From Ignavibacteria bacterium (GTDB lineage: Bacteria > Bacteroidota > Ignavibacteria > Ignavibacteriales > Melioribacteraceae): 64,000 nt of DNA. The notes under the pieces are model-generated. The model was not told the DNA's origin. It worked only from the letters and a program-made list of their open reading frames with translations, and made no database searches. Both the position numbers and the translations under genes were made by a program. Location of the stretch: positions 1-64,000 of the forward strand of contig JAAYAN010000125.1 of assembly GCA_012719345.1 (NCBI GenBank), given 5' to 3'. Positions 3,326 through 21,238 of this stretch are shown here, in pieces (the first letter of the stretch is position 1; each line of letters starts with the position of its first letter).

Positions 3326-4459
3326 TTATTTAAGAGGCATAATTTTATCAGAATATTTTGTGATTATATAACGGGTATCATTAAAACTTTGTATCATTGC
3401 AGAAGAATCTTTTTTTGAAATATATTCCGGATAAAGTCCTCCCTTAAAATTCTGCGAAATTATTTTGTATTCACGCTTTTCACCTGTATTGCCTTTATAA
3501 ACCCAAACCGGCAGGTATTTTACATCCCCAAGCGAGAATTTTCTTGAAATATCCTGACGTGATATGCTGAAATTAAGTATTATGCCGCAATCGGAATATC
3601 TCCAGCGCTGATTTGAAATAAAATTACCTAGCGAATATGCTGTAAATCCGGTATCTATATTTGCGCTTGAATCTGAGTAAAAACGCACCGGCTGAATTAC
3701 GTGAGGATGACTTGCAATAATTATATCGGCTCCGGCTTTTAATGCAATTTCTTCTGTCTTCCGCTGGTAATTATTTTCAGTCCTCTGGTATTCGTTTCCA
3801 AAATGGAAATATACTATTATCAGTTCGGCCCCCATTTCTCTTATTTTTCTTATGTCATTTGTAATTTTAGCCGAATCGATAACATTTACTGTTGTTTTGC
3901 TTTTATTTGATTGTGCTCCTAGGTTTGTTCCGTAAGTATATGCGGGAAAACCTATTTTAACTCCTTTTACTTTTACAATTCTATAACTTTTCAAGGAATC
4001 GTTTTTTACGGTGTAACCTGTGGTAAGAAATCCATATTTTTCTGTCTCTTTTATAGTTGATTCGAGACCATAGCTGCCATAATCGTAAATGTGATTATTT
4101 GCAAGATAAAGCAGGTCGAAACCGCAGCTTTTTATTGCTTTTAGATATTCTTCGGGCGAGTTAAAGCAAGGATATCCTGAATAAGGTTTTTCGCTGTTTA
4201 CTACAGTTTCAAGATTCCCGACAGTAAAATCGGCTGATTGAAGTGTTTTCCTGACATATTCAAAAACAGGATTAAAATCATAACCGCTGTCAGTTTTTGC
4301 ATAATCCCTTTGGGGAGAATGCATCATAAGATCGCCTATAAAATTAAAAGTTATTTCTGTAACTGTAACCGGTTTTTCTTGCGGTGCTTTTTTTTCGGTA
4401 TGGCAAAAAGAAAAAAAGAAAGAGATTAGAATTGCTAAAGTGCTGATTATATATTTCAT
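3326..4459 (-). CDS. CapA-family metallophosphoesterase-like protein
   Basis: This 377-residue exported protein belongs to the CapA / poly-gamma-glutamate synthesis family, which has a calcineurin-like fold. Metal-site blocks are FIGDLMMHS, GNLETVV, LANNHIYDYG, YFHFGNEY, IIASHPHVIQP and YSLGNF. The N-terminus is a hydrophobic export signal ending in a Cys at residue 19 (FSFC), a poor lipobox, so lipid attachment is uncertain. The family is linked to surface polymers in some bacteria, but no pgs genes lie nearby and the substrate is unknown. It sits 64 bases upstream of the MFS gene on the same strand. Confidence 0.88.
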   Translation of the reverse strand: MKYIISTLAILISFFFSFCHTEKKAPQEKPVTVTEITFNFIGDLMMHSPQRDYAKTDSGYDFNPVFEYVRKTLQSADFTVGNLETVVNSEKPYSGYPCFNSPEEYLKAIKSCGFDLLYLANNHIYDYGSYGLESTIKETEKYGFLTTGYTVKNDSLKSYRIVKVKGVKIGFPAYTYGTNLGAQSNKSKTTVNVIDSAKITNDIRKIREMGAELIIVYFHFGNEYQRTENNYQRKTEEIALKAGADIIIASHPHVIQPVRFYSDSSANIDTGFTAYSLGNFISNQRWRYSDCGIILNFSISRQDISRKFSLGDVKYLPVWVYKGNTGEKREYKIISQNFKGGLYPEYISKKDSSAMIQSFNDTRYIITKYSDKIMPLK

Positions 4460-4518
4460 AAAAAAAGGTTACAATCGTTATTCAATTTACAAAAATAACG
4501 AAAGTAACCATGAAAACA

Positions 4519-4704
4519 TTAAGATTTTTTACTAGCCTTTTTTTCTTGAATCTCAACACGCATATCCTGGGCTAAAGCCTTTAATTCGCTTAAACTTTTT
4601 CTTAAACGTGTGCCGGCAGCCGATTGCCCTTTTTCGTAAAATTTCTGAACATCTGCTTCCATCGATTTTACAAAGTCGATAAGATTATTGTATTTTTCGC
4701 TCAT
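4519..4704 (-). CDS. Histone H1-like (Hc1 family) DNA-binding protein
   Basis: This is a 61-residue, Lys/Arg-rich, mostly helical protein with a central GTRLRKSLSELK segment and a KKASKKS tail. It matches the short Hc1-like proteins common in Bacteroidota, which are thought to bind DNA as nucleoid proteins. A good ribosome site (AGGAG) precedes the ATG. The gene lies between the FeS oxidoreductase (31 bases upstream) and the capA-like gene. The family assignment rests on composition and this core motif only. Confidence 0.8.
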   Translation of the reverse strand: MSEKYNNLIDFVKSMEADVQKFYEKGQSAAGTRLRKSLSELKALAQDMRVEIQEKKASKKS

Positions 4705-4735
4705 AACTACTCCTGTAATTTTATAGTATTATTAG

Positions 4736-6691
4736 TTATTTAGAATTTTCGAGAACAATTTCAGCAATATCTTTAACTTCCATTTTGTTCCCGTTTATTG
4801 TTTTAAAACCGTCATTCAGCATAGTCATACAAAACGGGCAGGCAGAAACAACTTCTTCGGCACCCGATTTTTCAATCTCTATTGCGCGGTTAATATTTAT
4901 TTTTTCACTGTTTTTTTCTTCAAGAAACATTCTTCCGCCGCCGGCTCCGCAACAGAATCCTTTTTCATAATTCCTTTTTTGTTCAATAAAATAATTCTTA
5001 TAAAGTAATTTAATAGGATTTCTTGGAAAATCATAAATATTATTGTATCTGCCAAGATAACAAGAGTCGTGATATGTTATTTTTTTTGTTTTTTCTTCTT
5101 CTTTTAATACAATTTTACCTGTTTCAATAAGCTCGTTTATAAATTCCGAATGGTGAAGCACCTTAAAATTTCCGCCAAATTGCGGGAAATCATTCTTCAG
5201 AGAATTAAAGCAGTGAGGACAAGCTGTTACAATATTTTTCACATTGTATTTCCGAATAGTCTGAATATTTTCGGTAATAAGCATCTGCGCAAGATATTCA
5301 TTTCCCAGCCGGCGTGCAGTATCTCCGTTACATTTTTCTTCATTCCCGAGAATCCTGAATTTTATTCCTGCTTTATATAATATTTCTGAAAAAGCAGCCG
5401 ACACTTTTTTTGCTCTTTCATCAAACGAACCTGCACATCCTACCCAAAAAAGCCATTCACAATCTGCGTCTTCGGCAAGGGTTTTAATTCCAAGCGGCTT
5501 TGCCCAGTCTGCTCTGCTGCTGTTGCTGAATCCCCATGGATTGTAAGAATTTTCAATGTTTCTGAATACTCCGTTCAATTCTGCGGGAAACCGCGATTCT
5601 GTAAGAACAGTATTTCTCCGGAGTTCATATATTGTATCGAGATGTTCAATTTCAACCGGACACTCGTAAACGCAAGCACCGCAGGATGTGCACGACCAAA
5701 TTTCTTCTTCCGATGCATAATTTCCGAGAAGTTTTTTATCGCTTCCCGTTTTGTATTTTTCTTCAGATCTCTTTCTTATATCAGTTATTATTTTCCGCGG
5801 TGAAAGAGGTTTGCCTGTCTGCGCGGCCGGACAAACTGAATCGCATCTTCCGCATTCGGTGCAGGCAAATCCGTTAAGAATTTGCTTCCACGAAAGTTCA
5901 TTTGTATCCGCTGCTCCATAACTTTCGGCATTTTCATCTTCCAGATTTATGGGATAAATCGAATATTTATTTTCCAATTTTGAAAAGAATACATTTGGAA
6001 TTGCAGTGATTATATGAAAGTGTTTTGAAAAAGGAAGATAATTAAGAAATACAAGGATAAGAATGTTATGAATCCACCAGCTTGTTTCTAAAATAATATT
6101 GCTGTAATTTATTGCACCGGCAGGTAAAATGGCCGAAAGTATTTTTGTTATTGGGATTAATTCATTTCCCGGAATGAAATGATTTCCAGCGGCTGACTGA
6201 ATATTCATCGTAACTACTATTCCCGCAATTAAAAACAGTATAATTAAAGCATCCTTATTTCCTGCTTTGCTTGTCTGAAGTCTTTTAATTCTAATTATGT
6301 ACCGCCTGGCAATTGCGACTGCAACTGCAAATAAGACCAAAACTGAAAACACCTGATTTACAGTGCTAAAAATATAAGAAATGTTTTCAGGAAGATTAAA
6401 AGAAAAATTTGAATAAAATCCATTTAAAAAAGATTCTGTTACCGGGAAAAGGAATATTATAAATCCCCAGAAAATTGCTAAATGAATAAATCCTGCAAAC
6501 GGCTGGCGTATTATTTTTATTTGCGCAAAACATAATACCGCAGTCTTTTTAATTCTTGCAGTTAAATTGTCCCATCGGTACTCGTCTTTACCCGTTTTTA
6601 TTATCTTAATTTTCTTTTGCAGATTAAAAAGAAATATCCCTGAGGATATAATAAAAACAGCAGTAAATATTATATTTTTTAATTCCATCAT
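4736..6691 (-). CDS. Membrane-anchored FeS oxidoreductase (heterodisulfide reductase D / FadF-like)
   Basis: The first ~240 of 651 residues are a membrane domain related to nitrate reductase gamma / HdrE, with several His that could bind haem (H70, H208, H224, H226). Two 4Fe-4S motifs follow: C277-C280-C283-C287 and C334-C337-C340-C344. Two CCG-type domains come last, the first with EKCNGD and CPHC, the second with HDSCY, GFCCGAGGGRMF and CPFC. Proteins built this way move electrons between soluble donors, for example electron-transfer flavoprotein, and the quinone pool. No etfAB or acyl-CoA dehydrogenase gene is adjacent, so the donor is unknown. It overlaps the upstream hydrolase gene by 4 bases. 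Confidence 0.88.
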   Translation of the reverse strand: MMELKNIIFTAVFIISSGIFLFNLQKKIKIIKTGKDEYRWDNLTARIKKTAVLCFAQIKIIRQPFAGFIHLAIFWGFIIFLFPVTESFLNGFYSNFSFNLPENISYIFSTVNQVFSVLVLFAVAVAIARRYIIRIKRLQTSKAGNKDALIILFLIAGIVVTMNIQSAAGNHFIPGNELIPITKILSAILPAGAINYSNIILETSWWIHNILILVFLNYLPFSKHFHIITAIPNVFFSKLENKYSIYPINLEDENAESYGAADTNELSWKQILNGFACTECGRCDSVCPAAQTGKPLSPRKIITDIRKRSEEKYKTGSDKKLLGNYASEEEIWSCTSCGACVYECPVEIEHLDTIYELRRNTVLTESRFPAELNGVFRNIENSYNPWGFSNSSRADWAKPLGIKTLAEDADCEWLFWVGCAGSFDERAKKVSAAFSEILYKAGIKFRILGNEEKCNGDTARRLGNEYLAQMLITENIQTIRKYNVKNIVTACPHCFNSLKNDFPQFGGNFKVLHHSEFINELIETGKIVLKEEEKTKKITYHDSCYLGRYNNIYDFPRNPIKLLYKNYFIEQKRNYEKGFCCGAGGGRMFLEEKNSEKININRAIEIEKSGAEEVVSACPFCMTMLNDGFKTINGNKMEVKDIAEIVLENSK

Positions 6692-9625: not shown

Positions 9626-10498
9626 TTATTTTTTAAAACGTTCTTTGTATCTGCATTTTTTGCAAAGTATTTCAACTGCTTTATTTTTCGAAAAACCTTT
9701 ATAAATGCTGTTTGCCCTTTCTGAATTTATAATTTCATCAAAATTTTTAATGAATATATTTCCCAAATTAATTATACCTTTTGCATCAAGACAGCATGGC
9801 ACAACGGTGCCATCAACTAGGATTCCCGCTTGATCGCGCAAACCCAGGCAAAATCCTTCTTCATTTAAGAATGTATCAGATATTTCCGGCCAGATAAATT
9901 CTTTTTCAAAATTAATATATAGCCGCTCTTTTATCTTAATTCCGTTTGAGTCAATTTTCCCGCAAATTTCCTTATTTACATTCATCTTTTTCAAAATATC
10001 ATTGATTATTTTTTTTTCTGATTCGGGCATAATACTATTTTCATCAAGATTCCAGAATCTTAAAGAAATTATTATTTTCGATTTTTGTAACGCCTCTTCT
10101 GCAAACCTTAAAATTTCCTCAGTATAAAATTCCGACGATATATTTTCGTTTGCACCAAGACTATGGACAGAAATATTTATTTGTCTTACTGAACCGGATT
10201 GAAGTAGTATTTCGCCCTTTTCTTTCAGCAGAGTACCGTTTGTAGTAATATTTACAAATAAATTATATTTATTTGATAAATCAAGAATTGTCTTTATTTC
10301 AGGATGCAGCAGCGGCTCGCCTTTTATATGCAAATTAATATAATCACTAAATGGTTTTATCTGCTTAAGAATATTCTCAAATCCGCTTGGTTTCATAAAT
10401 TCAATTTTACGGTTATGAGGCGGACAGAATGAACATTTTAAATTACAGGCATTTGTAATTTCGATATATATTTTTTTAAATTTCCGGATATTGTTCAT
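9626..10498 (-). CDS. Radical SAM protein with SPASM-like C-terminus
   Basis: This 290-residue radical SAM enzyme has the CxxxCxxC cluster at C18-C22-C25 (ACNLKCSFC), a GEPLLHPEI segment (GGE-like SAM site) and NITTNGTLL. A C-terminal SPASM-like set of cysteines (FCLGLRD, VPCCLDAKG, LCKKCRY) probably binds an auxiliary FeS cluster. Relatives modify peptides, sugars or other small molecules; no RiPP precursor is visible. It is the last gene of a minus-strand run of glycosyltransferase-like genes (27 bases after the GT47-like gene), so a role in modifying that glycoconjugate is a reasonable guess. Confidence 0.85.
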   Translation of the reverse strand: MNNIRKFKKIYIEITNACNLKCSFCPPHNRKIEFMKPSGFENILKQIKPFSDYINLHIKGEPLLHPEIKTILDLSNKYNLFVNITTNGTLLKEKGEILLQSGSVRQINISVHSLGANENISSEFYTEEILRFAEEALQKSKIIISLRFWNLDENSIMPESEKKIINDILKKMNVNKEICGKIDSNGIKIKERLYINFEKEFIWPEISDTFLNEEGFCLGLRDQAGILVDGTVVPCCLDAKGIINLGNIFIKNFDEIINSERANSIYKGFSKNKAVEILCKKCRYKERFKK

Positions 10499-10525
10499 AA
10501 GCAGGACAAACTTTATTTTATGGAT

Positions 10526-11524
10526 TCATTTAATTTTTATATTCGCACTTGCATCTTTTGCAAAACGCAGAAAATGATAAGGACGCAATAATTGCATATG
10601 TTTCTTAACTTGCACAAATTTATTATTTATTTTCCCTTCCGATTTTATTTCATTCAGCCATTCGGCTATCCTGTGAAATGAGCTTTTCTCAGAGAAATAT
10701 TCTTCCCAAATATGTCTGGCTTTTATGCCCATTATATCAGCATAAGCCGTTCTTTCGTTTAATATTTGAGGAATAATACTAACATTTTTCTGTTTAATCC
10801 TTATACTGAATTCATCCCAATTTATTCCGGCAGGTTCTACCCATTCATCCGAAATAATTACAGGCACTCTTCCCATCATCATTGTTTCAAATAACCTGAA
10901 ACTCGAAGTACCGAATCCTCTGGGACAAAGAACAAAATAACTTTTATTTAAATTTTCTGCATATTCGCTGCGATAATTTTTATAATCTTCAGGATGTACG
11001 ATAAGTCCCTTCTTTTTCTTTACTTTTAAATTTTGAATGTCTTTTAAAAAAGAATTTTTACACTTCAGATTCATTATTTTTTTTCTGATAGGATGATTAT
11101 CTGCTTGTCCAATGAAAGAAAACAAATATTCCTTTTGATTAAGATGTTCATTATAAAGCAGCGGCGGTTCTTCTCTTATTCCTATATAATGGAAAGATCT
11201 TTCCCAATCAGGATCGTACCACCTTTTTTCCAACGACGAATAGAGCCCGGGCAAATAAGAAATAAACTTATCGTTTGAACTGATAATAAATGATTTGAAC
11301 TTATATTTTTTATATAGCGGATTAACAAAAATATCCTGCATGTATTTTCTGTCGCTTCCGCAAAAAAGTATAATATCACAATCTTCGGGATTCTCAATAA
11401 GGCAATGTGTTTTATGCTTGTCTTTTTCGGCAAGCTCTTTAATTCTTATAAAAGAAGAATAACTTTCACCTTCTTTTTTTAACGGAATATTAAGATATAT
11501 TCCTGTCAAACATTTCCCTTTCAA
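10526..11524 (-). CDS. Exostosin-like glycosyltransferase (GT47-type)
   Basis: The 332-residue protein carries the exostosin signature in its C-terminal half: CPRGFGTSSFRLFE (200-213), then MGRVPVIISDEWVEP and INWDEFSIRI. This donor-sugar region is typical of GT47 enzymes, which are common in eukaryotes and scattered in bacterial surface glycan clusters. Residues 1-170 are a variable acceptor half. There is no signal peptide, so it is cytoplasmic. The start appears to be a TTG overlapping the stop of the preceding gene. The sugar and acceptor are unknown. Confidence 0.82.
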   Translation of the reverse strand: MKGKCLTGIYLNIPLKKEGESYSSFIRIKELAEKDKHKTHCLIENPEDCDIILFCGSDRKYMQDIFVNPLYKKYKFKSFIISSNDKFISYLPGLYSSLEKRWYDPDWERSFHYIGIREEPPLLYNEHLNQKEYLFSFIGQADNHPIRKKIMNLKCKNSFLKDIQNLKVKKKKGLIVHPEDYKNYRSEYAENLNKSYFVLCPRGFGTSSFRLFETMMMGRVPVIISDEWVEPAGINWDEFSIRIKQKNVSIIPQILNERTAYADIMGIKARHIWEEYFSEKSSFHRIAEWLNEIKSEGKINNKFVQVKKHMQLLRPYHFLRFAKDASANIKIK

Positions 11525-12660
11525 AAATTATAAATATATTCAGACACTTCTTCAGTTCCGTTACGTAATTTCTGATTTTCTATTCTATTTATAAATTCTG
11601 CATAATATTTTTCATCCGATATAAACCGGCAAACAACTTCCGATATTTTCTCAATGTTGGTTTCATATATTCCCAAACCATTATCTCGCAGATATTCCAT
11701 ATTGCCTTTTTCCTGCTCCCATAAATAATTTGTAACAACTGGCACTTTTTTAGAAAGCAGAATCTCCATAAATGTAGAAGCCCCGCATTTTGTTATCACA
11801 ACATCCGAAATATTGAGCATATCAGGGACAAAATCAATAAGTTTATATACTTTAAGAAATTGATAACCTGTCTGTCCTTTTATCTTTTCAGCTTTATTGT
11901 AAAGTTCTTCGTTTTTACCGCAGACTATTACAATGTAATGCTGATTCATTTTCTGAACCATTTTTTTTATTATCTGATCTGCTTTTACCAAACCATCTGC
12001 CCCGCCGATAATAAGAATTATCTTCCTCTTTTCTTCAAATCCGAGGTTTTGTTTTATTTTATTTATTTCTTCTGAAGAAGCTGGCTTTCCGAACTTTTCA
12101 TCAAGTATAAATGGGAATACAGAAATTGATTGCGGCGCAATTCTTCTTTTCACTATTTTAGTTTTTAATTCTTCACTGAAAACAATAAAATTTTGGTTCT
12201 TAATCAAAAACCATATCGGATGAGGCGTGTAAGGATCAGTAACAACTGTAATAATTTTACAATCAAGTTTATGCTTTTGAATTATTTTTCTTACAGGTTT
12301 TAAAAGGAAAAAATGAAATATCACTACTTTTTGAGGTTTTCTGCTTAAGATAATTCTTTCAATTGAAGTTATAGAATAAAATGATATTATTGAACACGTA
12401 AGATTAGAAAATAAAGGGATTTTGTTGAAAGCATAAATTATTTCATATATAAGCTGTGCTTTGGATTGCAGATTCCGGTACCCGTCTTCAATAATTGCTT
12501 TAAGCCAATTCCCAACATTTTCGAAACCGTCAACTAGCTCAACTTCAACATTATTTTTTTTTGCATTTAAATATTGGGATACAGACCTTGCCGGTGCCAA
12601 ATGCCCGCCCCCGGTTTTAAGATAAAAAAATAAATATTTCTCTTTTAGATTATCAGACAT
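11521..12660 (-). CDS. GT28-like glycosyltransferase related to MGDG synthase / diacylglycerol glucosyltransferase
   Basis: The 379-residue GT-B protein opens with FYLKTGGGHLAPARSV, the glycine-rich acceptor loop of the monogalactosyldiacylglycerol synthase / UgtP group. It ends with the donor site ITKCGASTFMEILLSKKVPVV. These enzymes add sugar from a UDP-sugar to diacylglycerol at the inner membrane, so a glycolipid product is likely. It sits 2 bases after another protein with the same general fold and overlaps the start of the exostosin-like gene. Two GT28-like genes in a row suggest successive sugar additions, or one enzyme and one partner. Confidence 0.82.
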   Translation of the reverse strand: MSDNLKEKYLFFYLKTGGGHLAPARSVSQYLNAKKNNVEVELVDGFENVGNWLKAIIEDGYRNLQSKAQLIYEIIYAFNKIPLFSNLTCSIISFYSITSIERIILSRKPQKVVIFHFFLLKPVRKIIQKHKLDCKIITVVTDPYTPHPIWFLIKNQNFIVFSEELKTKIVKRRIAPQSISVFPFILDEKFGKPASSEEINKIKQNLGFEEKRKIILIIGGADGLVKADQIIKKMVQKMNQHYIVIVCGKNEELYNKAEKIKGQTGYQFLKVYKLIDFVPDMLNISDVVITKCGASTFMEILLSKKVPVVTNYLWEQEKGNMEYLRDNGLGIYETNIEKISEVVCRFISDEKYYAEFINRIENQKLRNGTEEVSEYIYNF

Positions 12661-12662
12661 TT

Positions 12663-13976
12663 TTACCTCATTAACGGAGATGATCTTTCTTCCATTTTAC
12701 CGGTACTTAAAACTTCATCTATTTTATAAATTCCAAGTTTACGAGCTTTTAAAAAACCTGACCAGGCTGCTTCTGCAAGTCTTCCATCGTTTAAATAATC
12801 AAAAAGCCATTGGTCTGTATATTCAGGGTTCATCTGCTTTATTCCGGCGCCTATTTCGCGAAGCCATTTCCTGTTAAATTTTTCTTGCGAGCCTATTGCC
12901 GGACTCATAATTATCGGAATTCCAAGACCGCAGAAAAACGAAAGTTCGCTCGGTTTTGTCCACAAAATATCAGTATCCCTTAATAAACTGTTGAATTTAT
13001 TAAAGTATTCTTTAATTTCAGAAGAATAGCAAATATTAATGCTTTTTCCGTTTTCATCGAACTTCCGTTTCAGAACGGAGAAATAATCAAAAACTTCTTT
13101 TCTTATTCCTGCAATAAGGTTTATCTGCACTTCATTTTTCTTAATTTTTTCCCGAAGACTTTTAATAATTTTTTCTGCTATTTCTTTTTGAGCTCCGGCT
13201 CCGCCTACAGCATAAGTTATTGTAAGAGGTCTTCCCCCTTTGAATATGCATTTTTCTTCGCCTAAAAAATGCTGCACGCTTACCCCGTGCATCGACATAA
13301 ACTTACCGCACGGATCAAGAAATCTTAATCTTTGCCCCAAGTCATTTTTTACAAATTCAAGGTCTTTCCCGCCTATCAATTCTTCGGGCAGCGGAAAACC
13401 TGTAATGTATATTTTATCTTTCGAAACACCGTATGCCTCAAGTCTTTTAGCAGCTTTTCCGCAAGGAGCAAAGTATTTTATCCTGCTTTCATAAGGGTCC
13501 GGCGAAACCCATACTCTGTTGATATCCGCATCACAAATAATACAAAAGACCTGATGATTCCCCTGAATATCTGCAGCAATTGCCGGTGCATAAAATGAAG
13601 TAATCATTGGAATTTGCTCGGATTGGATTTCCTGAAGAACACCTTGGCAAAGCCCTTTTTTAATACTCGAGATTAGTAATGACACCTGAAAAGTTTTTTG
13701 CGATAAATCCCGCATTGGATAAAAACTCGGGATATGAAGCAATCTGTCCAATAATCCGAAAACAGGCTTGCCTATAACAGGAATACTTTTAACGCGCGAA
13801 ATAAAATTGTAAGCAGACAAACTTTTTTCCCAAAGTTTTTTTTCTTTTTCCGAAACAAAACTTCCTCTATCGGCATTTAGTATTCCTCTGTCAGAATATT
13901 TTTCCAGCGCATAAGCAGCCCTATGATGTCCGTACCCCATTTCAACAGAAACAACCCAAGCTTTAATATTTTCCAT
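12663..13976 (-). CDS. Divergent GT28-like protein of unknown substrate
   Basis: From the ATG at 13976 the protein has 437 residues. The N-terminus VSVEMGYGHHRAAYAL matches the GGGH loop region of GT28 proteins. The middle has ITSFYAPAIAADI, CDADINRVWV and YFAPCGKAAKRL followed by ITGFPLP. The C-terminus has AVGGAGAQ and a donor-site-like block LWTKPSELSFFCGLGIPII. It resembles a whole-length relative of processive lipid glycosyltransferases, but I do not recognise a characterised member. It follows the SpoIIE phosphatase gene after 20 bases and precedes the second GT28-like gene by 2. The upstream TTG at 13982 is a less likely start. Confidence 0.7.
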   Translation of the reverse strand: MENIKAWVVSVEMGYGHHRAAYALEKYSDRGILNADRGSFVSEKEKKLWEKSLSAYNFISRVKSIPVIGKPVFGLLDRLLHIPSFYPMRDLSQKTFQVSLLISSIKKGLCQGVLQEIQSEQIPMITSFYAPAIAADIQGNHQVFCIICDADINRVWVSPDPYESRIKYFAPCGKAAKRLEAYGVSKDKIYITGFPLPEELIGGKDLEFVKNDLGQRLRFLDPCGKFMSMHGVSVQHFLGEEKCIFKGGRPLTITYAVGGAGAQKEIAEKIIKSLREKIKKNEVQINLIAGIRKEVFDYFSVLKRKFDENGKSINICYSSEIKEYFNKFNSLLRDTDILWTKPSELSFFCGLGIPIIMSPAIGSQEKFNRKWLREIGAGIKQMNPEYTDQWLFDYLNDGRLAEAAWSGFLKARKLGIYKIDEVLSTGKMEERSSPLMR

Positions 13977-13996
13977 AAGCAATATTTTTTTACGAC

Positions 13997-15184
13997 TTAA
14001 AGTCTTTTAATTACTACAACTGTTGCATCATCAAACCATTTATCCTGATTTCCATATTTCCGTGTAACTTCAAATATTTCCTGATTTATTTCTTTTGCCG
14101 ATTTGTGCTGGTTTTCAATAATTAAATCTTTAAGTTTTTGAATCCCGAATTCGTCTTCAGCAGAATTTGTTCTTTCAATAATTCCATCAGTATAAAGTAC
14201 AATCAAGCTGCCAGGTTCCATACGTGCATATTCTCTTTGAAGTTCAATTTCAGGAAGAGCGCCAAATATCAATCCAGTACTGTTAAGCTCTTGTATGTCA
14301 TTCCCTTTAATCAATAACGGAGCAGGGTGACCTGCGTTTACATAAAACAGATTTCCGTTATTTTCGATATTTGCGTAGAACAATGAAATGAATCTTGTTG
14401 AATAAACAGACCGGTATATCACTCTGTTAAGTTTTTTAAGTACGTGTGTAATTTCTGCGTGACTTTCCACTCCCATTCTTAAACCTGTTACCACATCTCT
14501 TGCTAAAAGAGCAGCTGGAATTCCGTGTCCGCTTGCATCACCTATTACAAAGCCGAATCTTCCATCTTCGTGAAGGAAATAATCGTACAAGTCGCCACCC
14601 ACAAGTTCTGCAGCAACAGACCTGCCGTGGATATCAAATCCTTGTATATCAGGCGAATTTTGCGGTAATAAGCTTTGTTGGATACTTGCTGCCTGTTGAA
14701 GTTCGTTTTTTATCGTTTCTGAAATCAGCCTTTGGTTAAGTGATGCATTAACAGCATTAAGACAAAGCTGAATTTCATCACGTATCCAGCCGGCTTTTAA
14801 ATCAAAAATAACAATATATCTAAATTCCCCGTTACGGACAATAAAAGCGGCAGGTATTGTATGATCGTTATTCTTGCTTACCGATTCATCGATTGTAAAT
14901 TCTTTATTATTGTATATATAGCTTCGGTTTTTTATCAGCATTTTTACCGGCTCGCTTATCGCGTTGATTTTTTTTAATTTTATGTCTTCAGGATTTGAAG
15001 AACTTATAAGTATATATTCGTTTCCTGCTTCCTCATAAATTCTTCCGTTGGTGATATGAAGATCTTTTCCAAAAGTTGATTCAACTTCGCCAACAATTGA
15101 CATAATAAAGTCTTTGCCCGACTTTCCGAAACTAATTTTGCTTAAAAGCGCATCAAGCTTTCTGTAAAATATTTTTGGATCCAA
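13997..15184 (-). CDS. SpoIIE/RsbU-type PP2C phosphatase with N-terminal sensor
   Basis: Residues ~1-150 look like a GAF-type sensor domain. A linker helix (ELQQAASIQQSLLPQ) leads to a PPM phosphatase domain with AAELVGGDLYD (192-201), VIGDASGHG (213-221) and VLYTDGIIERTN, the metal-binding Asp positions of SpoIIE/RsbU enzymes. Such enzymes dephosphorylate STAS-domain anti-anti-sigma factors or release other switch proteins. No STAS/RsbW pair is adjacent; a SpoIIAA-like protein lies far away at 28295. A TTG at 15184 with an AAAGGGA site is the only sensible start. It may be co-transcribed with the glycosyltransferase genes downstream. Confidence 0.87.
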   Translation of the reverse strand: MDPKIFYRKLDALLSKISFGKSGKDFIMSIVGEVESTFGKDLHITNGRIYEEAGNEYILISSSNPEDIKLKKINAISEPVKMLIKNRSYIYNNKEFTIDESVSKNNDHTIPAAFIVRNGEFRYIVIFDLKAGWIRDEIQLCLNAVNASLNQRLISETIKNELQQAASIQQSLLPQNSPDIQGFDIHGRSVAAELVGGDLYDYFLHEDGRFGFVIGDASGHGIPAALLARDVVTGLRMGVESHAEITHVLKKLNRVIYRSVYSTRFISLFYANIENNGNLFYVNAGHPAPLLIKGNDIQELNSTGLIFGALPEIELQREYARMEPGSLIVLYTDGIIERTNSAEDEFGIQKLKDLIIENQHKSAKEINQEIFEVTRKYGNQDKWFDDATVVVIKRL

Positions 15185-15281
15185 TTATTTCCCTTTCAAT
15201 ATTTTTTTTTGAACTTGGACTAACATAATAATTTTATGTGAAATAACAGTTACGAATTATACTTAAATTTGATTTTTTTAA

Positions 15282-15344
15282 CCGGAAGGATAACTATTTT
15301 CCGGGGAAATATCGTATAATATTAAATTTAATACATCCCCGGAA
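15282..15344. other. Two overlapping inverted repeats after the efflux operon
   Basis: TTCCGGGGA (15299-15307) and TCCCCGGAA (15336-15344) form a perfect 9 bp stem with a 28-base loop. CCGGAA (15282-15287) can instead pair with TTCCGG (15299-15304). The two stems share bases and exclude each other. On the minus strand the region follows the last permease stop by 6 bases and no T run follows, so an mRNA 3-prime structure or attenuator between the efflux operon and the phosphatase gene is possible. Confidence 0.45.
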
Positions 15345-15350
15345 TGAACT

Positions 15351-16574
15351 TTACTCGTATCGTAGAGCTTCTATTGGATCAAGATTTGCAGCTTTATAAG
15401 CAGGATATGTGCCAAAACCAACCCCAACAAATACACAAAGCATAATTCCAATTATAACCCAATCGTATGGGATTGCGTTAGAAGCTTCAAGCATGCTGCC
15501 CAGAATATTCCCAACTAATATACCTAATACTATCCCTATTATCCCCCCAAGCTGGCATAAAACAACCGCTTCAGTAAGAAATTGAACTAATATATTGGAT
15601 TTTCTGGCTCCTACTGCTTTTCTTATTCCAATTTCCCGAGTTCTTTCAGTTACAGAAACAAGCATAATGTTCATAATACCAACACCTGCAGCAGTTAGTG
15701 CAATCAACGAAATAACAATTGCACCTATTCTAACACTTGCAGTTATATCATTAATCTGTGTTAATATCGATTCGTTTGAATAAATTCCAAAATCGTCTTC
15801 CTCGCCAGGCGGCACCTTTCTGATAGTACGCATAAATCCAGTTGCCTTATCCATTAAATCCTGATAATCTTCTTTAGATTTAGAGGTAACTGTAATATTT
15901 ATACTTCTATTATCCTTTCCATAAAAACTTTGAAATGTTGTAATAGGAGATACAGCAAAATTGTCCTGACTCTGACCAAAGAACGAGCCCTGTTTTTCAA
16001 GAACACCTATTACTCTTAAGTTTCTGTTATCAACCTTAACTTCTTTGCCAATTGGATCTGAATTTCCAAATAATGTTGTCGCAACTTCTGCTCCAAGTAC
16101 TACAACCCTTTCATATCGGTCAATATCCTTCTCATTAAATATTCTTCCACTCTCAGCAATCCATTTATTATTTGGGAAAGCTTCGGTTGTTGCTCCGCTT
16201 AATTGAATGTTAGGATTAGTTTCTTTATTTCCATATTGAAAGGTTTTTCCATACTGCCACAACTCAGCGCCGACAGCCTGGGCATCAGTAAGCAAGTCTT
16301 TCAATCTTTCATAATCTTCTAATTTTATATCTTTTCTATTGCGGGTTCTGTCTCTTCCACCTGGTCCGTGTCCAACCATTGCTGGCCATTTCTGAATTTG
16401 AAATGTATTCTGCCCAAGCTGAGAAATTCCTTCTTCGATGCTGTTTTGCATTATCGTAATAATAGTGCTGGTGGCAATTATCGAAAATATCCCTACAATA
16501 ATACCAAGTATTGTAAGCGTTGAACGAAGTTTATTAACCCGTAAGGAATTTAATGCTATTTTTATAATTTCCAT
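15351..16574 (-). CDS. MacB-type ABC transporter permease (second copy)
   Basis: This 407-residue protein has one N-terminal membrane helix (residues ~15-40), a periplasmic domain of ~230 residues and three C-terminal helices, the FtsX/MacB permease plan. The conserved ends are ALNSLRVNKLRSTLTILGIIVG and SVTERTREIGIRKAVGAR. There is no nucleotide-binding domain; the ATPase is separate at 17821. Start and preceding stop share one base (TAATG). It differs from the upstream permease in its periplasmic part, which suggests a heterodimeric permease. Confidence 0.93.
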   Translation of the reverse strand: MEIIKIALNSLRVNKLRSTLTILGIIVGIFSIIATSTIITIMQNSIEEGISQLGQNTFQIQKWPAMVGHGPGGRDRTRNRKDIKLEDYERLKDLLTDAQAVGAELWQYGKTFQYGNKETNPNIQLSGATTEAFPNNKWIAESGRIFNEKDIDRYERVVVLGAEVATTLFGNSDPIGKEVKVDNRNLRVIGVLEKQGSFFGQSQDNFAVSPITTFQSFYGKDNRSINITVTSKSKEDYQDLMDKATGFMRTIRKVPPGEEDDFGIYSNESILTQINDITASVRIGAIVISLIALTAAGVGIMNIMLVSVTERTREIGIRKAVGARKSNILVQFLTEAVVLCQLGGIIGIVLGILVGNILGSMLEASNAIPYDWVIIGIMLCVFVGVGFGTYPAYKAANLDPIEALRYE

Positions 16575-17812
16575 TATTCGTACCTCAAAGCTTCTACCGG
16601 ATCCATTTTTGCCGCAGAATAAGCCGGTGCAAATCCAGACAATATTCCTGTAATTAGTGAAATTAAAAGAGCAAGAACAAATGCATCATACTGCAGAGAA
16701 ACCGGGAAATCCATCTTTTCAATTATCATACTTAAAATAACTGCAAATAAAAGTCCTACTAAACCGCCCAGCAAACATAAGATTAATGCTTCCATAATAA
16801 ACTGACGAAGAATTGTTACACTTTTTGCTCCAATTGCTTTTCTTATACCTATCTCTTTTGTACGTTCCTTAACTGAAACAAACATAATATTCATTATCCC
16901 GATGGCTCCTACAAATAAAGCAAGTCCTGTTATAACATACCCGGCAATCTGAACTACTCCGATAGTTGAGTCAATTTCATTTAATAAGCCTTCTTGCTGA
17001 TTAATACCGAAGTTATCTCTTTCATCGTATCTTAAGCCTCTAATACGCCTCATAATACTTTGTGCTTCTTCTTTTACTATTGTTATCTGCTGGCTGTTTG
17101 CAGCACGAATATTTATTGTAATGCTGCCTCTTGCATTTTGATAGTATTTAAATACGCAATCCAGAGGAATAAAAACCTGATTATCGGGATTCATATCTCC
17201 CATCACCCAGCTGCCTAATTCATCTAAAACGCCAATTATTTTATATTTATTCGATTTTATTTTAATTATTTTATTCATCGCTCCGCCATTTGGGAAAAGC
17301 TGTTTAGCAATTTCGGAACCTATAACTACAACCATTCTTGCCCCGTCAGATTCAGTTTCAGAAATAAACCTTCCTTCGGCAAAAGTAAAATTGGTTGTTT
17401 TTATATAATCGCTTGTAACTCCGGTAATTGTCACACCTTCTATTTTTGAATCGCCAAATTTAATTGTTTGCTGGCTTGCCGCTGATGGAGCTGTAGCAAG
17501 CGGTAATTTAGCCATTCGCTTATATTGGTCATACTCATCCATTATAACTTCGGGTCTGTTACGCATTTCCCACCAAGGAACATCGTTATCAAACCACGAC
17601 CACTTAGTAATATACATATTATCCGAACCAAGCGCTGATACCCCAGTTTGAAAAGCTTCATCTATTCCTTTTACTGCCGTGGACATTAGAACTACTGAGG
17701 TAACGCCTATAATTATACCAAGTGTTGTTAGAAGCGATCGTACTTTATTAGCTTTAAGCGCATTGAATGAGATTATCAATCCTTCTTTTAATTCAAATGA
17801 AAGCTCTTTCAT
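16574..17812 (-). CDS. MacB-type ABC transporter permease (first copy)
   Basis: At 412 residues it follows the same four-helix plan, with SFNALKANKVRSLLTTLGIIIG at the start and SVKERTKEIGIRKAIGAK before the last helices, ending ALRYE. The periplasmic domain would contact the MacA-like adaptor. It lies 8 bases after the ATPase gene. Together with 15351-16574, 17821, 18553 and 19845 it forms a complete export machine. The substrate is unknown; characterised MacB relatives export peptides, enterotoxin, macrolides or lipoproteins. Confidence 0.93.
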   Translation of the reverse strand: MKELSFELKEGLIISFNALKANKVRSLLTTLGIIIGVTSVVLMSTAVKGIDEAFQTGVSALGSDNMYITKWSWFDNDVPWWEMRNRPEVIMDEYDQYKRMAKLPLATAPSAASQQTIKFGDSKIEGVTITGVTSDYIKTTNFTFAEGRFISETESDGARMVVVIGSEIAKQLFPNGGAMNKIIKIKSNKYKIIGVLDELGSWVMGDMNPDNQVFIPLDCVFKYYQNARGSITINIRAANSQQITIVKEEAQSIMRRIRGLRYDERDNFGINQQEGLLNEIDSTIGVVQIAGYVITGLALFVGAIGIMNIMFVSVKERTKEIGIRKAIGAKSVTILRQFIMEALILCLLGGLVGLLFAVILSMIIEKMDFPVSLQYDAFVLALLISLITGILSGFAPAYSAAKMDPVEALRYE

Positions 17813-17820
17813 AATTTTCC

Positions 17821-18546
17821 TTAATTAACACTTATTTTTGTTTTAGGAATAATTCTATTCGTAACAAACTCATCTCTTTCAATATATCCGTCACGTATCC
17901 TGATAATTCTCTTTGCATGCTCAGCAATATATTCTTCGTGAGTAACAAGAATTATTGTATTTCCCTGATCGTGCAGATGAGCAAATAATCCCATAATATC
18001 TTCACCGGTTTTCGTATCCAAATTACCTGTCGGTTCATCTGCCAGGATTATTGCAGGTTTAGTTACAAGCGCACGGGCAATAGCTACTCGCTGTCTTTGT
18101 CCGCCAGATAATTCATTTGGTCTGTGATGCATCCTATCACCAAGTCCAACACTCAATAACGCCTGCGTTGCCCTTTCTTTTCTTTCCTCACTCGGTATTC
18201 CGGCATATATTAACGGAAGTTCTACATTATGCAGAGCTGAAGAACGGGCTAATAAATTGAATGTTTGAAAAACAAATCCAATTTCTTTATTTCTTATTCG
18301 CGCCAAATCATTATCATTCATTTCACTTACGTTATTATCTTTGAAAAGATAAAGTCCGCTTGTGGGTGTATCAAGGCATCCCAGCATATTCATAAGCGTA
18401 GATTTACCGGAACCTGAAGGACCCATTATTGCAACGTATTCGTTTTTATCAATTCTTAAAGAAACATCAGCTAAAGCATGTACTTCTTCTGATCCCACTG
18501 TATAAATTTTTGCAATATGTTCAATATTAATTATATTCATTTTCAT
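17821..18546 (-). CDS. ABC transporter ATPase, MacB/LolD-type
   Basis: The 241-residue ATPase has Walker [10 protein letters not shown], a Q-loop FVFQTFNLL, signature LSGGQRQR, Walker [13 protein letters not shown] and switch His in LVTHEE. The NLDTKTG form is typical of the LolD/MacB/FtsE branch that powers mechanotransmission rather than pore transport. It is encoded between the adaptor (6-base gap) and the permeases (8-base gap), so it most likely drives both permeases of this operon. Confidence 0.96.
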
Positions 18547-18552
18547 TCCGGT

Positions 18553-19827
18553 TTAAGATTTTTTTGCTTTTTTGTCTTTTTTCTCTTCGATATATACTTT
18601 TTTACCATCAGAGATTTCGCTTGATATAGCTTTGTATGGACCCGAAATTACTTCTTCGCCACCGCTTAATCCTTCTGTTATCTGAATATAAGTGTCATCG
18701 CTTATTCCAGTACCAACTTTTACAAGTTTAGCTTGCCCATTTTCAAATAAGAATACAATTTCATCTAATTTTTTCTTTTTTTGCTCTTTTTTAACTGTTA
18801 CTACTTCATCATCAGTTTCTTCTTCAATTTTCATTTCAGTACGTGCTGTTACACTTTGAATAGGAACTGTAATTACATTTTTAACAGTTTCAGTCTCTAT
18901 ATCGGCATCGCAAGACATTCCGGGACGAACTTCATTACCTTCATCAAGAAGTAATAATATTCTTACTTCGAAATTAACTACTTCATTCTGAGTACCTAAT
19001 CCGCTTGTAATTGCACTGTTACCTATTTGTGTAACAACTCCGTGAAACTGTTTATCTTTAAAAGCATCAATTTCTATTTTTGCCGTATCACCAACAGATA
19101 TTTTTACAACATCATTTTCGTCAACTTCAACACGTGCTTCCATTTTGGAAAGATCGGCAACAGTCATAATATTTGTACCCTGCGAAAATCCGCTTCCTAA
19201 AACTCTTTCTCCAACTTCAACATTTAACGCGCTAATTGTTCCAGTTAAAGGAGCATATATTACAGTCTTAGCCAATTCTTCCTGAGCTTCTTTTAATGAT
19301 TCGGAAGCTTGAATAACAGAAGATTTTTGTGCTTCATATTCGCCAGCTCTTTGAAGATAGCTTGATTTTGCCTGTTCAATTTCCGCATTACTTGCCAGTC
19401 CTTTTTCAAAAAGACCCTGCATTCTTTTGTAGTCAGCTTCAATAAGATCAAGTGTAGCTTTTCTTACATTTAATGTTGATTTTGCCGCTTCCAAATTAGC
19501 TTCAGCCCGGTTTTTCTGGGCAATATAAATATCAGGCTTAATTCTGATAAGCAAATCACCTTTATTTACTTTATCCCCTTCTTTCACAGGAAGTTCCACA
19601 ATTTCGCCTGTCACTTCAGGTGTAATTACAACCTGATATTCCGGATTTATTTTTCCGGTTGCTGTAACAACTTCCGTAATATCTCTTTTAATAACTTTTT
19701 CAGTCTGTACATAAACTATTTCTTCTTTGTTGCTGCCTAATATTACTACTGCAATAAGCGCTAAAACTAAAAACCCGATAACACTTAAAATGATTACTTT
19801 TTTCTTTTTTGATTTACCGTTTGCCAT
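18553..19827 (-). CDS. MacA/HlyD-type periplasmic adaptor
   Basis: The 424-residue protein has a basic start, a single membrane helix (residues ~11-31), a lipoyl-like half (ITPEVTGEIVELPVKEGDKVNKGDLL), a helical hairpin (~95-165), the second lipoyl half (VIYAPLTGTISALNVEVGERV) and a beta-barrel domain. It would bridge the inner-membrane permeases and the TolC-like outer-membrane channel. A run of charged residues (KIEEETDDEVVTVKKEQKKKK) interrupts the C-terminal domain and is unusual. RBS AGGAG precedes the ATG. Confidence 0.94.
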   Translation of the reverse strand: MANGKSKKKKVIILSVIGFLVLALIAVVILGSNKEEIVYVQTEKVIKRDITEVVTATGKINPEYQVVITPEVTGEIVELPVKEGDKVNKGDLLIRIKPDIYIAQKNRAEANLEAAKSTLNVRKATLDLIEADYKRMQGLFEKGLASNAEIEQAKSSYLQRAGEYEAQKSSVIQASESLKEAQEELAKTVIYAPLTGTISALNVEVGERVLGSGFSQGTNIMTVADLSKMEARVEVDENDVVKISVGDTAKIEIDAFKDKQFHGVVTQIGNSAITSGLGTQNEVVNFEVRILLLLDEGNEVRPGMSCDADIETETVKNVITVPIQSVTARTEMKIEEETDDEVVTVKKEQKKKKLDEIVFLFENGQAKLVKVGTGISDDTYIQITEGLSGGEEVISGPYKAISSEISDGKKVYIEEKKDKKAKKS

Positions 19828-19844
19828 TATTATTTCTCCTAATA

Positions 19845-21149
19845 TTATTCAAATTTTTTATAATCAAGAACGCCAAGATAATTCATCAATCTGTCTCTGT
19901 ACTCAAAATATCTGTACTGAGCATTTATCTGATCACTTAATGCCTGCTGATAATCTTTATCTGCTTGAAGAACATCCAAAATAGTTCCTGACCCCAAATT
20001 GTATCTTTCATTGTTTACACGTCTGTTTTCACTGGCGGATATTACATTTTTTTTGCTTACATCCAGCTGTTTTTTTGCAGCCTGCAAATCTAAATATCCT
20101 TGTTTAACTTGTATTTTAATTGATCTTTCAAGCGCTCTTAAATCTTCTTTTGAGTTCATTACATTAACCTTTGCAAACTGAATTTGGTTATCAGTTCTCC
20201 AATTTGAAAATAAAGGGACACTTAGTGTTAACCCAAAACTATGAGAATATGTTTTATTTTTATATAAATTTGATATCGCATCTGCTGAAGTATTAAAAAG
20301 TCCGTAATTTGCTGATAATTGCGGATATAAACCTCCACGTGCAATAACTACACCGTCTTCAGCACTTTCCACATCAAGTTGCTTGCTTTGATAATCCTTT
20401 CTTTTTTCCAAAGCATTTTTAACCATATTTGTAATGGAACCAAACTCATCAATGTAAACTTCGGATTCTGAACCGGAGTTTGTTGTTGTAACATCTTCAA
20501 AAATATATTCCTCAAGCACGTCTAAAGAAAGATAGTTTAATAAAGAGCTTTTTGCATTTTCCAAGTTGTTTTGAGCCTGAATGAATAAAAGTTCCGCATT
20601 TCCGGCCTGTACCTGCTGAGTATAAACATCAGCAATTGCAACCGCTCCAAGCTTATTTCTTTCTTGAATTGTTTCTAAAAATTTCTGATTATATTTAACA
20701 TTTTCTTCTCTTACTTTAAGAAGTTTTTCTGCATTTATAACTTCATAATATAATGAAGTTGCCTCGAATACTACATCCTGTTTTAATTTTTCAAGTGCAA
20801 ATTCAGCAGATTCAAGTTCGTTTCCTGCTTGTTTTATTGAATAAATATTTGAAAGTCCGTCAAATAAAACTAATTGACCGCTAATTCCGGCACTGGCATT
20901 ATTTGTATTATAATCCAAGCTGTCTTTGTAATTTTTCATCCAATTTGCACTAACAGATGCCCCTACTGAAGGGAGTAAAGATCCGTAAGCAGATTTTAAA
21001 TTAGATTTGCTTGTAATGAGCGCATTTTTTGTTTTAAGCAACGAAGTATTGCTTTGAAGAGCTATTGCAACTGCCTCATCCAAAGTTATTTTCTTCTGCG
21101 CGTTAATTACTATAAGTGTACCGAATAAAAAGAAAAGTATTTTTTTCAT
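19845..21149 (-). CDS. TolC-family outer-membrane efflux protein
   Basis: From the ATG at 21149 it has 434 residues: a signal peptide ending at INAQ, then two repeats of the long-helix TolC fold, beginning ITLDEAVAIALQSN and, in the second half, GGLYPQLSANYG and YNLGSGTILDVLQADKDYQQA. It would form the outer-membrane exit duct for the MacA/MacB-like exporter encoded downstream (17-base gap). The start is fixed by a GGGAG site just ahead of that ATG; an upstream TTG at 21176 lacks this. It is the first gene of the five-gene operon. Confidence 0.94.
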   Translation of the reverse strand: MKKILFFLFGTLIVINAQKKITLDEAVAIALQSNTSLLKTKNALITSKSNLKSAYGSLLPSVGASVSANWMKNYKDSLDYNTNNASAGISGQLVLFDGLSNIYSIKQAGNELESAEFALEKLKQDVVFEATSLYYEVINAEKLLKVREENVKYNQKFLETIQERNKLGAVAIADVYTQQVQAGNAELLFIQAQNNLENAKSSLLNYLSLDVLEEYIFEDVTTTNSGSESEVYIDEFGSITNMVKNALEKRKDYQSKQLDVESAEDGVVIARGGLYPQLSANYGLFNTSADAISNLYKNKTYSHSFGLTLSVPLFSNWRTDNQIQFAKVNVMNSKEDLRALERSIKIQVKQGYLDLQAAKKQLDVSKKNVISASENRRVNNERYNLGSGTILDVLQADKDYQQALSDQINAQYRYFEYRDRLMNYLGVLDYKKFE

Positions 21150-21238
21150 TATCTCCCTCAAAAAGTATTTTTTCAAATTTTTATTTAATTGAATTATGTG
21201 ACGCTATGAGTCTTAAAAAAGTTACATCTGATTTTAAA

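Follow-up and report, generated by a model that had tools for sequence, protein, structure and literature searches.

What is made by a row of five co-directional genes that encode a phosphatase, three predicted glycosyltransferases and a radical SAM enzyme? The row occupies positions 9626-15184 of a 64,000-nucleotide stretch from an Ignavibacteria bacterium of the Melioribacteraceae (contig JAAYAN010000125.1; the whole stretch is hereafter called the window, and its assembly comprises 4.02 Mb in 323 contigs). The first-pass annotation took it for an unrecognised glycoconjugate cluster and offered, as one reading, a glycolipid with a radically modified sugar, perhaps switched by the phosphatase. 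Comparison with related genomes narrows the question to two adjacent genes, which encode a protein of the Pfam family DUF6938 (domain of unknown function; PF22053) and a glycosyltransferase of family 28 (GT28) resembling monogalactosyldiacylglycerol (MGDG) synthase. We put it at somewhat better than an even chance that the two proteins are sister GT-B transferases that constitute a two-enzyme glycolipid synthase, with a (di)glycosyl lipid as joint product and, most likely, diacylglycerol as acceptor.

The pairing recurs well beyond the window. Homologues of DUF6938 occur in 13 of the 79 genomes of the window's GTDB family, and GT28 is the next gene after DUF6938 in 9 of the 12 same-family loci other than the window; two of the remaining three end at contig edges and one (L022) is without GT28. 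Among 395 genomes of the phylum, DUF6938 exceeds 250 bits in 18, and the eight genomes with a full GT28 orthologue (above 480 bits) are all found among these 18. Across 84,980 species genomes scanned, 472 stretches encoding DUF6938 relatives were met, from which the best 80 were kept as named loci; these 80 come from Ignavibacteriota, Bacteroidota, Verrucomicrobiota, Spirochaetota and Bacillota. A GT28 of at least 450 bits adjoins DUF6938 in 48 of these best 80 of 472, and a divergent one (59 to 121 bits) in four further loci of the 80, all from Spirochaetota. Carriers of the pair include the named strains Natronoflexus pectinivorans (L130) and Alkalitalea saponilacus (L135). DUF6938 matched above 400 bits in 21 of 247 Spirochaetota genomes; in the 17 regions read, GT28 stood beside it in three (L187, L192 and L198), the DUF6938 frame itself being missing from the frame list in L187 and L188, where a longer antisense frame hides it. 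We also searched for the GT28 family in 24 genomes, 20 of which were picked for having no adjacent GT28 of 450 bits or for belonging to other phyla. Genomes without a neighbouring GT28 gave mostly weak MurG-like matches only, and some Bacillota carried another GT28 (145 to 207 bits) away from DUF6938. The conserved unit is two genes, and DUF6938 can also occur alone.

In the tree, the window's DUF6938 groups with Ignavibacteriaceae/Ignavibacteriales rows (L083, L128 and L140; 98/96) and not with the Melioribacter rows; its history and regulation may therefore differ from theirs. Two verrucomicrobial DUF6938 proteins group with Ignavibacteriaceae rows (100/99), a placement of the sequences that suggests transfer. 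An apparent loss of the pair is seen in one genome without DUF6938, where a GT28 remnant with several stop codons persists (G066:C398:4538-5095; 144 bits) and a calcineurin-like phosphoesterase adjoins a PstS-like gene (L233). The gene also keeps other company: in a metagenome-assembled genome of Bacillota (L141, 1131-5195) DUF6938 lies 3 bases after FliD- and FliS-like flagellar genes, named by eye, and in four Spirochaetota loci (L139, L145, L146 and L148) a conserved gene of about 582 residues, with the start MKEQLIVKNLPFIKILP, stands divergent next to it.

The structure prediction proposed for 12663-13976 by the first-pass annotation, a comparison with MGDG synthase, was carried out. The AlphaFold model of the 437-residue DUF6938 protein (predicted local distance difference test, pLDDT, 90.5; predicted template modelling score, pTM, 0.90; 51 sequences) matched the plant MGDG synthase MGD1 best among solved structures (Z 24.7, root-mean-square deviation (rmsd) 3.4, 300 residues). 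MurG came second (Z 22.6, rmsd 3.6, 301 residues), UDP-GlcNAc 2-epimerases matched below MGD1 (Z 20.6), and Foldseek placed MGD1 at the top as well. The GT28 model (pLDDT 91.6, pTM 0.89) also found MGD1 first (Z 33.0, rmsd 2.5, 320 residues), with MurG at Z 27.2. Identity to MGD1 in the structural alignments is 17% for DUF6938 and 22% for GT28. By profile, GT28 matches MGD1 with an E of 3.2e-53 and UgtP with an E of 1.1e-43, DUF6938 matches UgtP with an E of 1.6e-7, and the two families match each other profile to profile with a probability of 69 and an E of 4.4e-5. Both models have the GT-B fold of the GT28/MGDG-synthase clan. The early recognition of two GT28-like proteins, the 437-residue one without a characterised relative, is supported: both models are closest to MGD1, and Pfam files the longer protein as DUF6938. 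Judged by its model, this protein behaves like a member of the clan, yet it is classed as DUF6938.

The residues point the same way. M15, G16, G18, H19, R21, A22, G260, G261, K343-E346, E367 and N370 are invariant in DUF6938. The histidine of the GxGH motif is invariant in both families (H19 in 51 DUF6938 rows, H20 in 30 GT28 rows), and the E and N of the donor-site QExxN are invariant or nearly so in both. The GT28-MGD1 alignment equates the GGGH histidine with H155 of MGD1, which is the catalytic base according to a passage of one report (PMC7419546); for DUF6938 the equivalence of its histidine follows from its own profile alignment.

How, then, would two such enzymes divide the work? GT28, the closer kin of MGD1 and UgtP, would probably use a nucleotide-linked sugar to glycosylate diacylglycerol, its GGGH histidine serving as the base. 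DUF6938 is a divergent sister in which the histidine and the donor-site motifs are retained; it would probably take the same lipid and add a second sugar. MGD1 catalyses a first step, and the closer kinship of GT28 to it suggests that DUF6938 acts second. Full GT28 orthologues are never found without DUF6938, a distribution that would also be compatible with DUF6938 acting first or with the two forming a complex. Alternatively, in lineages without GT28, DUF6938 may work with another first-step enzyme. The product is probably a phosphorus-free membrane lipid, and the earlier idea that the GT28-like proteins make a glycolipid is supported as plausible.

A physiological context comes from the neighbours of the pair in relatives. 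In a Melioribacter locus (L020, on the contig of L109) the pair is divergent from a Porin_O_P gene and a Pst operon (PstSCAB) with PhoU, the two sides sharing one common intergenic region, and a calcineurin-like phosphoesterase lies downstream of the pair; the arrangement in L086 and L090 resembles it. In the L020 intergenic region, four units of 7 bases, each close to TGTTAAG, follow one another every 11 bases. We call them PHO-box-like since their form matches the PHO box as set out in a section of a Pho review, namely two 11-base direct repeats, in each of which seven bases are conserved and four less so (PMC4415409). In L118 (Akkermansiaceae), the gene opposite DUF6938 is PstS-like (198 bits against a cut-off of 206.6), and beside it lie a 657-residue fusion of a GT4 and a metallophosphoesterase and then PhoU and Pst genes.

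To quantify the boxes, we built a matrix from L086, L090 and L109 and compared the regions upstream of DUF6938 with those upstream of other genes in the same loci, omitting loci with less than 250 bases upstream. A first test kept the three source loci (73 vs 850 regions), and the final test excluded all three. Paired units scoring at least 12 were present upstream of DUF6938 in 8 of 70 regions as compared with 10 of 773 controls (p 3.4e-5); with L079, L087 and L088 counted once, 6 of 68 remained (p 9e-4). Spacings of 8, 10, 12 and 14 and a reversed matrix gave no significant excess at thresholds of 8 to 14, and one rank test at spacing 14 gave a p of 0.035. Several of the 10 control matches are also near DUF6938, and in L121 the phosphoesterase gene and DUF6938 each have a box. 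Most single DUF6938 loci are without one; the enrichment holds for the group. These neighbourhoods suggest that the phosphate-starvation regulon includes the pair in several relatives, where its lipid would probably replace phospholipids, as in the PlcP-Agt system. A wider proposal, which we advance tentatively and would place short of an even chance, is that the pair is an unrecognised GT28-based membrane-lipid remodelling module making a diglycosyl lipid. It would have moved among Ignavibacteriota, Bacteroidota and Verrucomicrobiota (Spirochaetota and Bacillota also having relatives), and in two or more phyla it would have come under the phosphate-starvation regulon, paralleling PlcP-Agt.

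The co-occurrence of the phosphoesterase was considered as further support and discounted. A 306-residue calcineurin-like phosphoesterase occurs in 12 of 13 DUF6938 genomes vs 24 of the 66 family members that lack DUF6938 (p 2e-4), although the match in G051, counted among the 12, is a 56-bit fragment with a stop; most of the matches, however, are of a different subfamily beside a sugar-nucleotide/aminotransferase cluster. The closer subfamily (at least 390 bits) is present in 5 of 13 DUF6938 genomes vs 3 of 66 others, and because all five share a contig with the pair, they count as one island and not as independent evidence. The second subfamily faces the conserved sugar-nucleotide/aminotransferase cluster in many Melioribacteraceae (L234-L246), and its opposite flank often carries Rnf-like genes (names by eye).

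Several observations weigh against the two-enzyme glycolipid synthase and its link to phosphate. The catalysis of the pair is a prediction from sequences and models, and DUF6938 has no Pfam MGDG_synth or Glyco_tran_28_C match, PF22053 being the only one up to an E of 0.1. The direct Pst linkage of the pair comes from few lineages, two here. In the window the pair has no Pho neighbour, and the box scores 7.6 upstream of SpoIIE (10.6% of controls are higher) and -1.0 upstream of DUF6938. Neither is the box enriched in the window's genome (3 matches with at most one mismatch, control 4), whose Pst operon, with genes named by eye and order, lies on another contig with no such box seen by eye. Any role of the lipid in the window's own organism would be an extension from relatives. 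Finally, in one family (f7) DUF6938 follows MraY instead. Separately, the window's genome has, at about 1455-1520 of L205 (G000:C78, about 71600-71670), six TTAA-containing units at about 11-base spacing that include one exact TGTTAAG-N4-TGTTAAG; they are flanked by a TonB-receptor-like gene and a divergently oriented one and are possibly a response-regulator site.

The MraY neighbourhood raises the question of whether DUF6938 could be a transferase that works as MurG does, on polyprenyl-linked sugars for cell-wall or surface polymers, with GT28, where present, extending the same carrier-linked chain. We consider this unlikely. MurG is indeed the second-best fold for DUF6938, and in f7 DUF6938 stands directly behind a Mur ligase and MraY, an order found in 5 of the 80 named loci (the best 80 of 472), with IspD following DUF6938 in L063. 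However, the MraY context is confined to one clade of the tree, and MGD1 fits both models better than MurG does. Of the 22 DUF6938 genomes tested, 21 have a MurG gene of their own apart from DUF6938, so replacement of MurG by DUF6938 is unlikely, although the acceptor of DUF6938 may yet be polyprenyl-linked. The only genome of the 22 without a MurG match is G168 (the contig of L066 and L136), whose genus mate G172 has one; no MurG was found in seven stretches (about 139 kb) of the DUF6938 contig of G168, most of that genome being unread. The loci of the MraY type (L063, L064, L066, L067, L136-L138, L142 and L144) are without a GT28 partner, and in L063 DUF6938 begins 1 base after MraY.

Alg13/Alg14 is a heteromeric transferase with a regulatory or membrane-docking subunit. 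That the pair is likewise one heteromeric transferase, with DUF6938 or GT28 serving mainly as such a subunit and not as one of two successive enzymes, appears to us a shade less probable still. The constant company of GT28 orthologues with DUF6938 (8 of 8) and the tight coupling of the two genes would agree with it, but both proteins keep their catalytic-site motifs and DUF6938 is alone in many genomes.

That all five genes form one pathway, with the radical SAM enzyme modifying the sugar of a glycolipid, GT47 extending the glycolipid and the SpoIIE phosphatase acting as a switch, is very improbable. The genes are contiguous, co-directional and separated by short gaps in the window's genome, but we rejected the cluster because the five families show no conserved co-occurrence in the neighbourhoods examined, an outcome that the first-pass annotation had itself named as refuting it. 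Among the matches listed, the radical SAM enzyme does not attain any curated equivalog cut-off. GT47 is near DUF6938 in none of the 12 same-family loci, none of a second set of 15 (which includes L069, a weak Pfam-only match without DUF6938) and none of 78 named loci (L106 and L146 are omitted, their DUF6938 frame being hidden by a longer antisense frame). A radical SAM gene is near DUF6938 in 0 of the 12 and 1 of the 78 (L145, a 20-bit match), and SpoIIE in 1 of the 12 (L026, a 27% match about 7 kb away) and 1 of the 78 (L140); a SpoIIE match also lies about 5 kb from DUF6938 in one of the 17 spirochaete regions (L196). In L140, whose DUF6938 is close to the window's in the tree, the SpoIIE-like gene (78 bits, 4000-5800) is one gene away on the opposite strand and may be there by chance. 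Nothing in the neighbourhoods examined connects the lipid with either the SpoIIE phosphatase or the radical SAM enzyme, and the radically modified, phosphatase-switched sugar of the first-pass annotation had adjacency in one genome as its sole basis. SpoIIE, GT47 and the radical SAM gene look like a local arrangement and not a conserved pathway.

The physical layout described at the outset does stand, both in coordinates and in Pfam domains. From SpoIIE through DUF6938, GT28 and GT47 to the radical SAM gene, the gaps are 20, 2, -4 and 27 bases, GT28 and GT47 sharing 4 overlapping bases, and a single transcript across the five genes is plausible. The DUF6938 gene starts at ATG, with a TTG 6 bases upstream. 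All Pfam matches listed for the five proteins exceed the Pfam cut-offs. Just upstream of SpoIIE, on the same strand, is an export operon (TolC/HlyD/ABC/two MacB-type permeases; 15351-21176), of which 15351-16574 was covered by the domain scan and the remaining genes were named by eye.

Table 1. Features of the five-gene locus in the window.
Feature	Coordinates	Strand	Matches	Remarks
SpoIIE-type PP2C phosphatase	13997-15184	-	Pfam SpoIIE 148 bits	Local neighbour; conservation absent
DUF6938 protein, GT-B glycosyltransferase of the GT28/MGDG-synthase clan	12663-13976	-	Pfam PF22053 63.5 bits	Core of the conserved pair
MGDG-synthase-like GT28	11521-12660	-	MGDG_synth PF06925 47.2 bits (cut-off 25); Glyco_tran_28_C PF04101 34.4 bits (cut-off 22)	Second member of the pair
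Exostosin-like GT47	10526-11524	-	Exostosin_GT47 74 bits; RXYLT1_C 41 bits	Local neighbour; unseen in relatives
Radical SAM/SPASM enzyme	9626-10498	-	Radical_SAM 52 bits; SPASM 47 bits	Local neighbour; conservation absent
Intergenic region 5' of SpoIIE	15185-15350	-		Probable promoter of the five genes; PHO-box-like repeat not above background

Searches of open-licence PubMed Central found no paper naming DUF6938 or PF22053. A fold prediction, a likely catalytic histidine, a conserved partner gene and a physiological setting open to test turn a domain of unknown function into a concrete question of enzymology. If the Pho link is true, a GT28 route joins the known GT4-based replacement of phospholipids under phosphate starvation.

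How does the pair compare with known systems? Passages of two reports describe PHO-box-type elements in the PlcP-Agt system of lipid remodelling under phosphate starvation (PMC4796936, PMC8528852). The likeness is seen in some relatives only, as Pho neighbours, PHO-box-like repeats and a calcineurin-like phosphoesterase or a GT4-phosphoesterase fusion; the phosphoesterase beside the pair, recognised by its domain type, is at most a candidate PlcP, and the fusion stands beside the pair only in L118. The window locus shows none of these features, and the pair is of GT28 type whereas Agt is of GT4 type. MurG shares the GT-B fold of the clan with both proteins, but GT28 stays far under its TIGR01133 cut-off of 250 bits (41.3 bits), DUF6938 gives no match and a true MurG lies elsewhere in the window's genome. 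The processive diacylglycerol beta-glucosyltransferase UgtP/YpfP gives profile matches to both proteins, but both proteins score far below the NCBIfam equivalog cut-off of 500 bits (GT28 113.6, DUF6938 26). UgtP is a single processive enzyme, whereas the pair consists of two dedicated genes. MGD1 shares the GT-B fold over most of both proteins, the GGGH histidine and the donor-site QExxN, and GT28 passes the Pfam MGDG_synth cut-off. In contrast to MGD1, the window has two distinct proteins in tandem, one of them, DUF6938, outside the Pfam MGDG_synth family.

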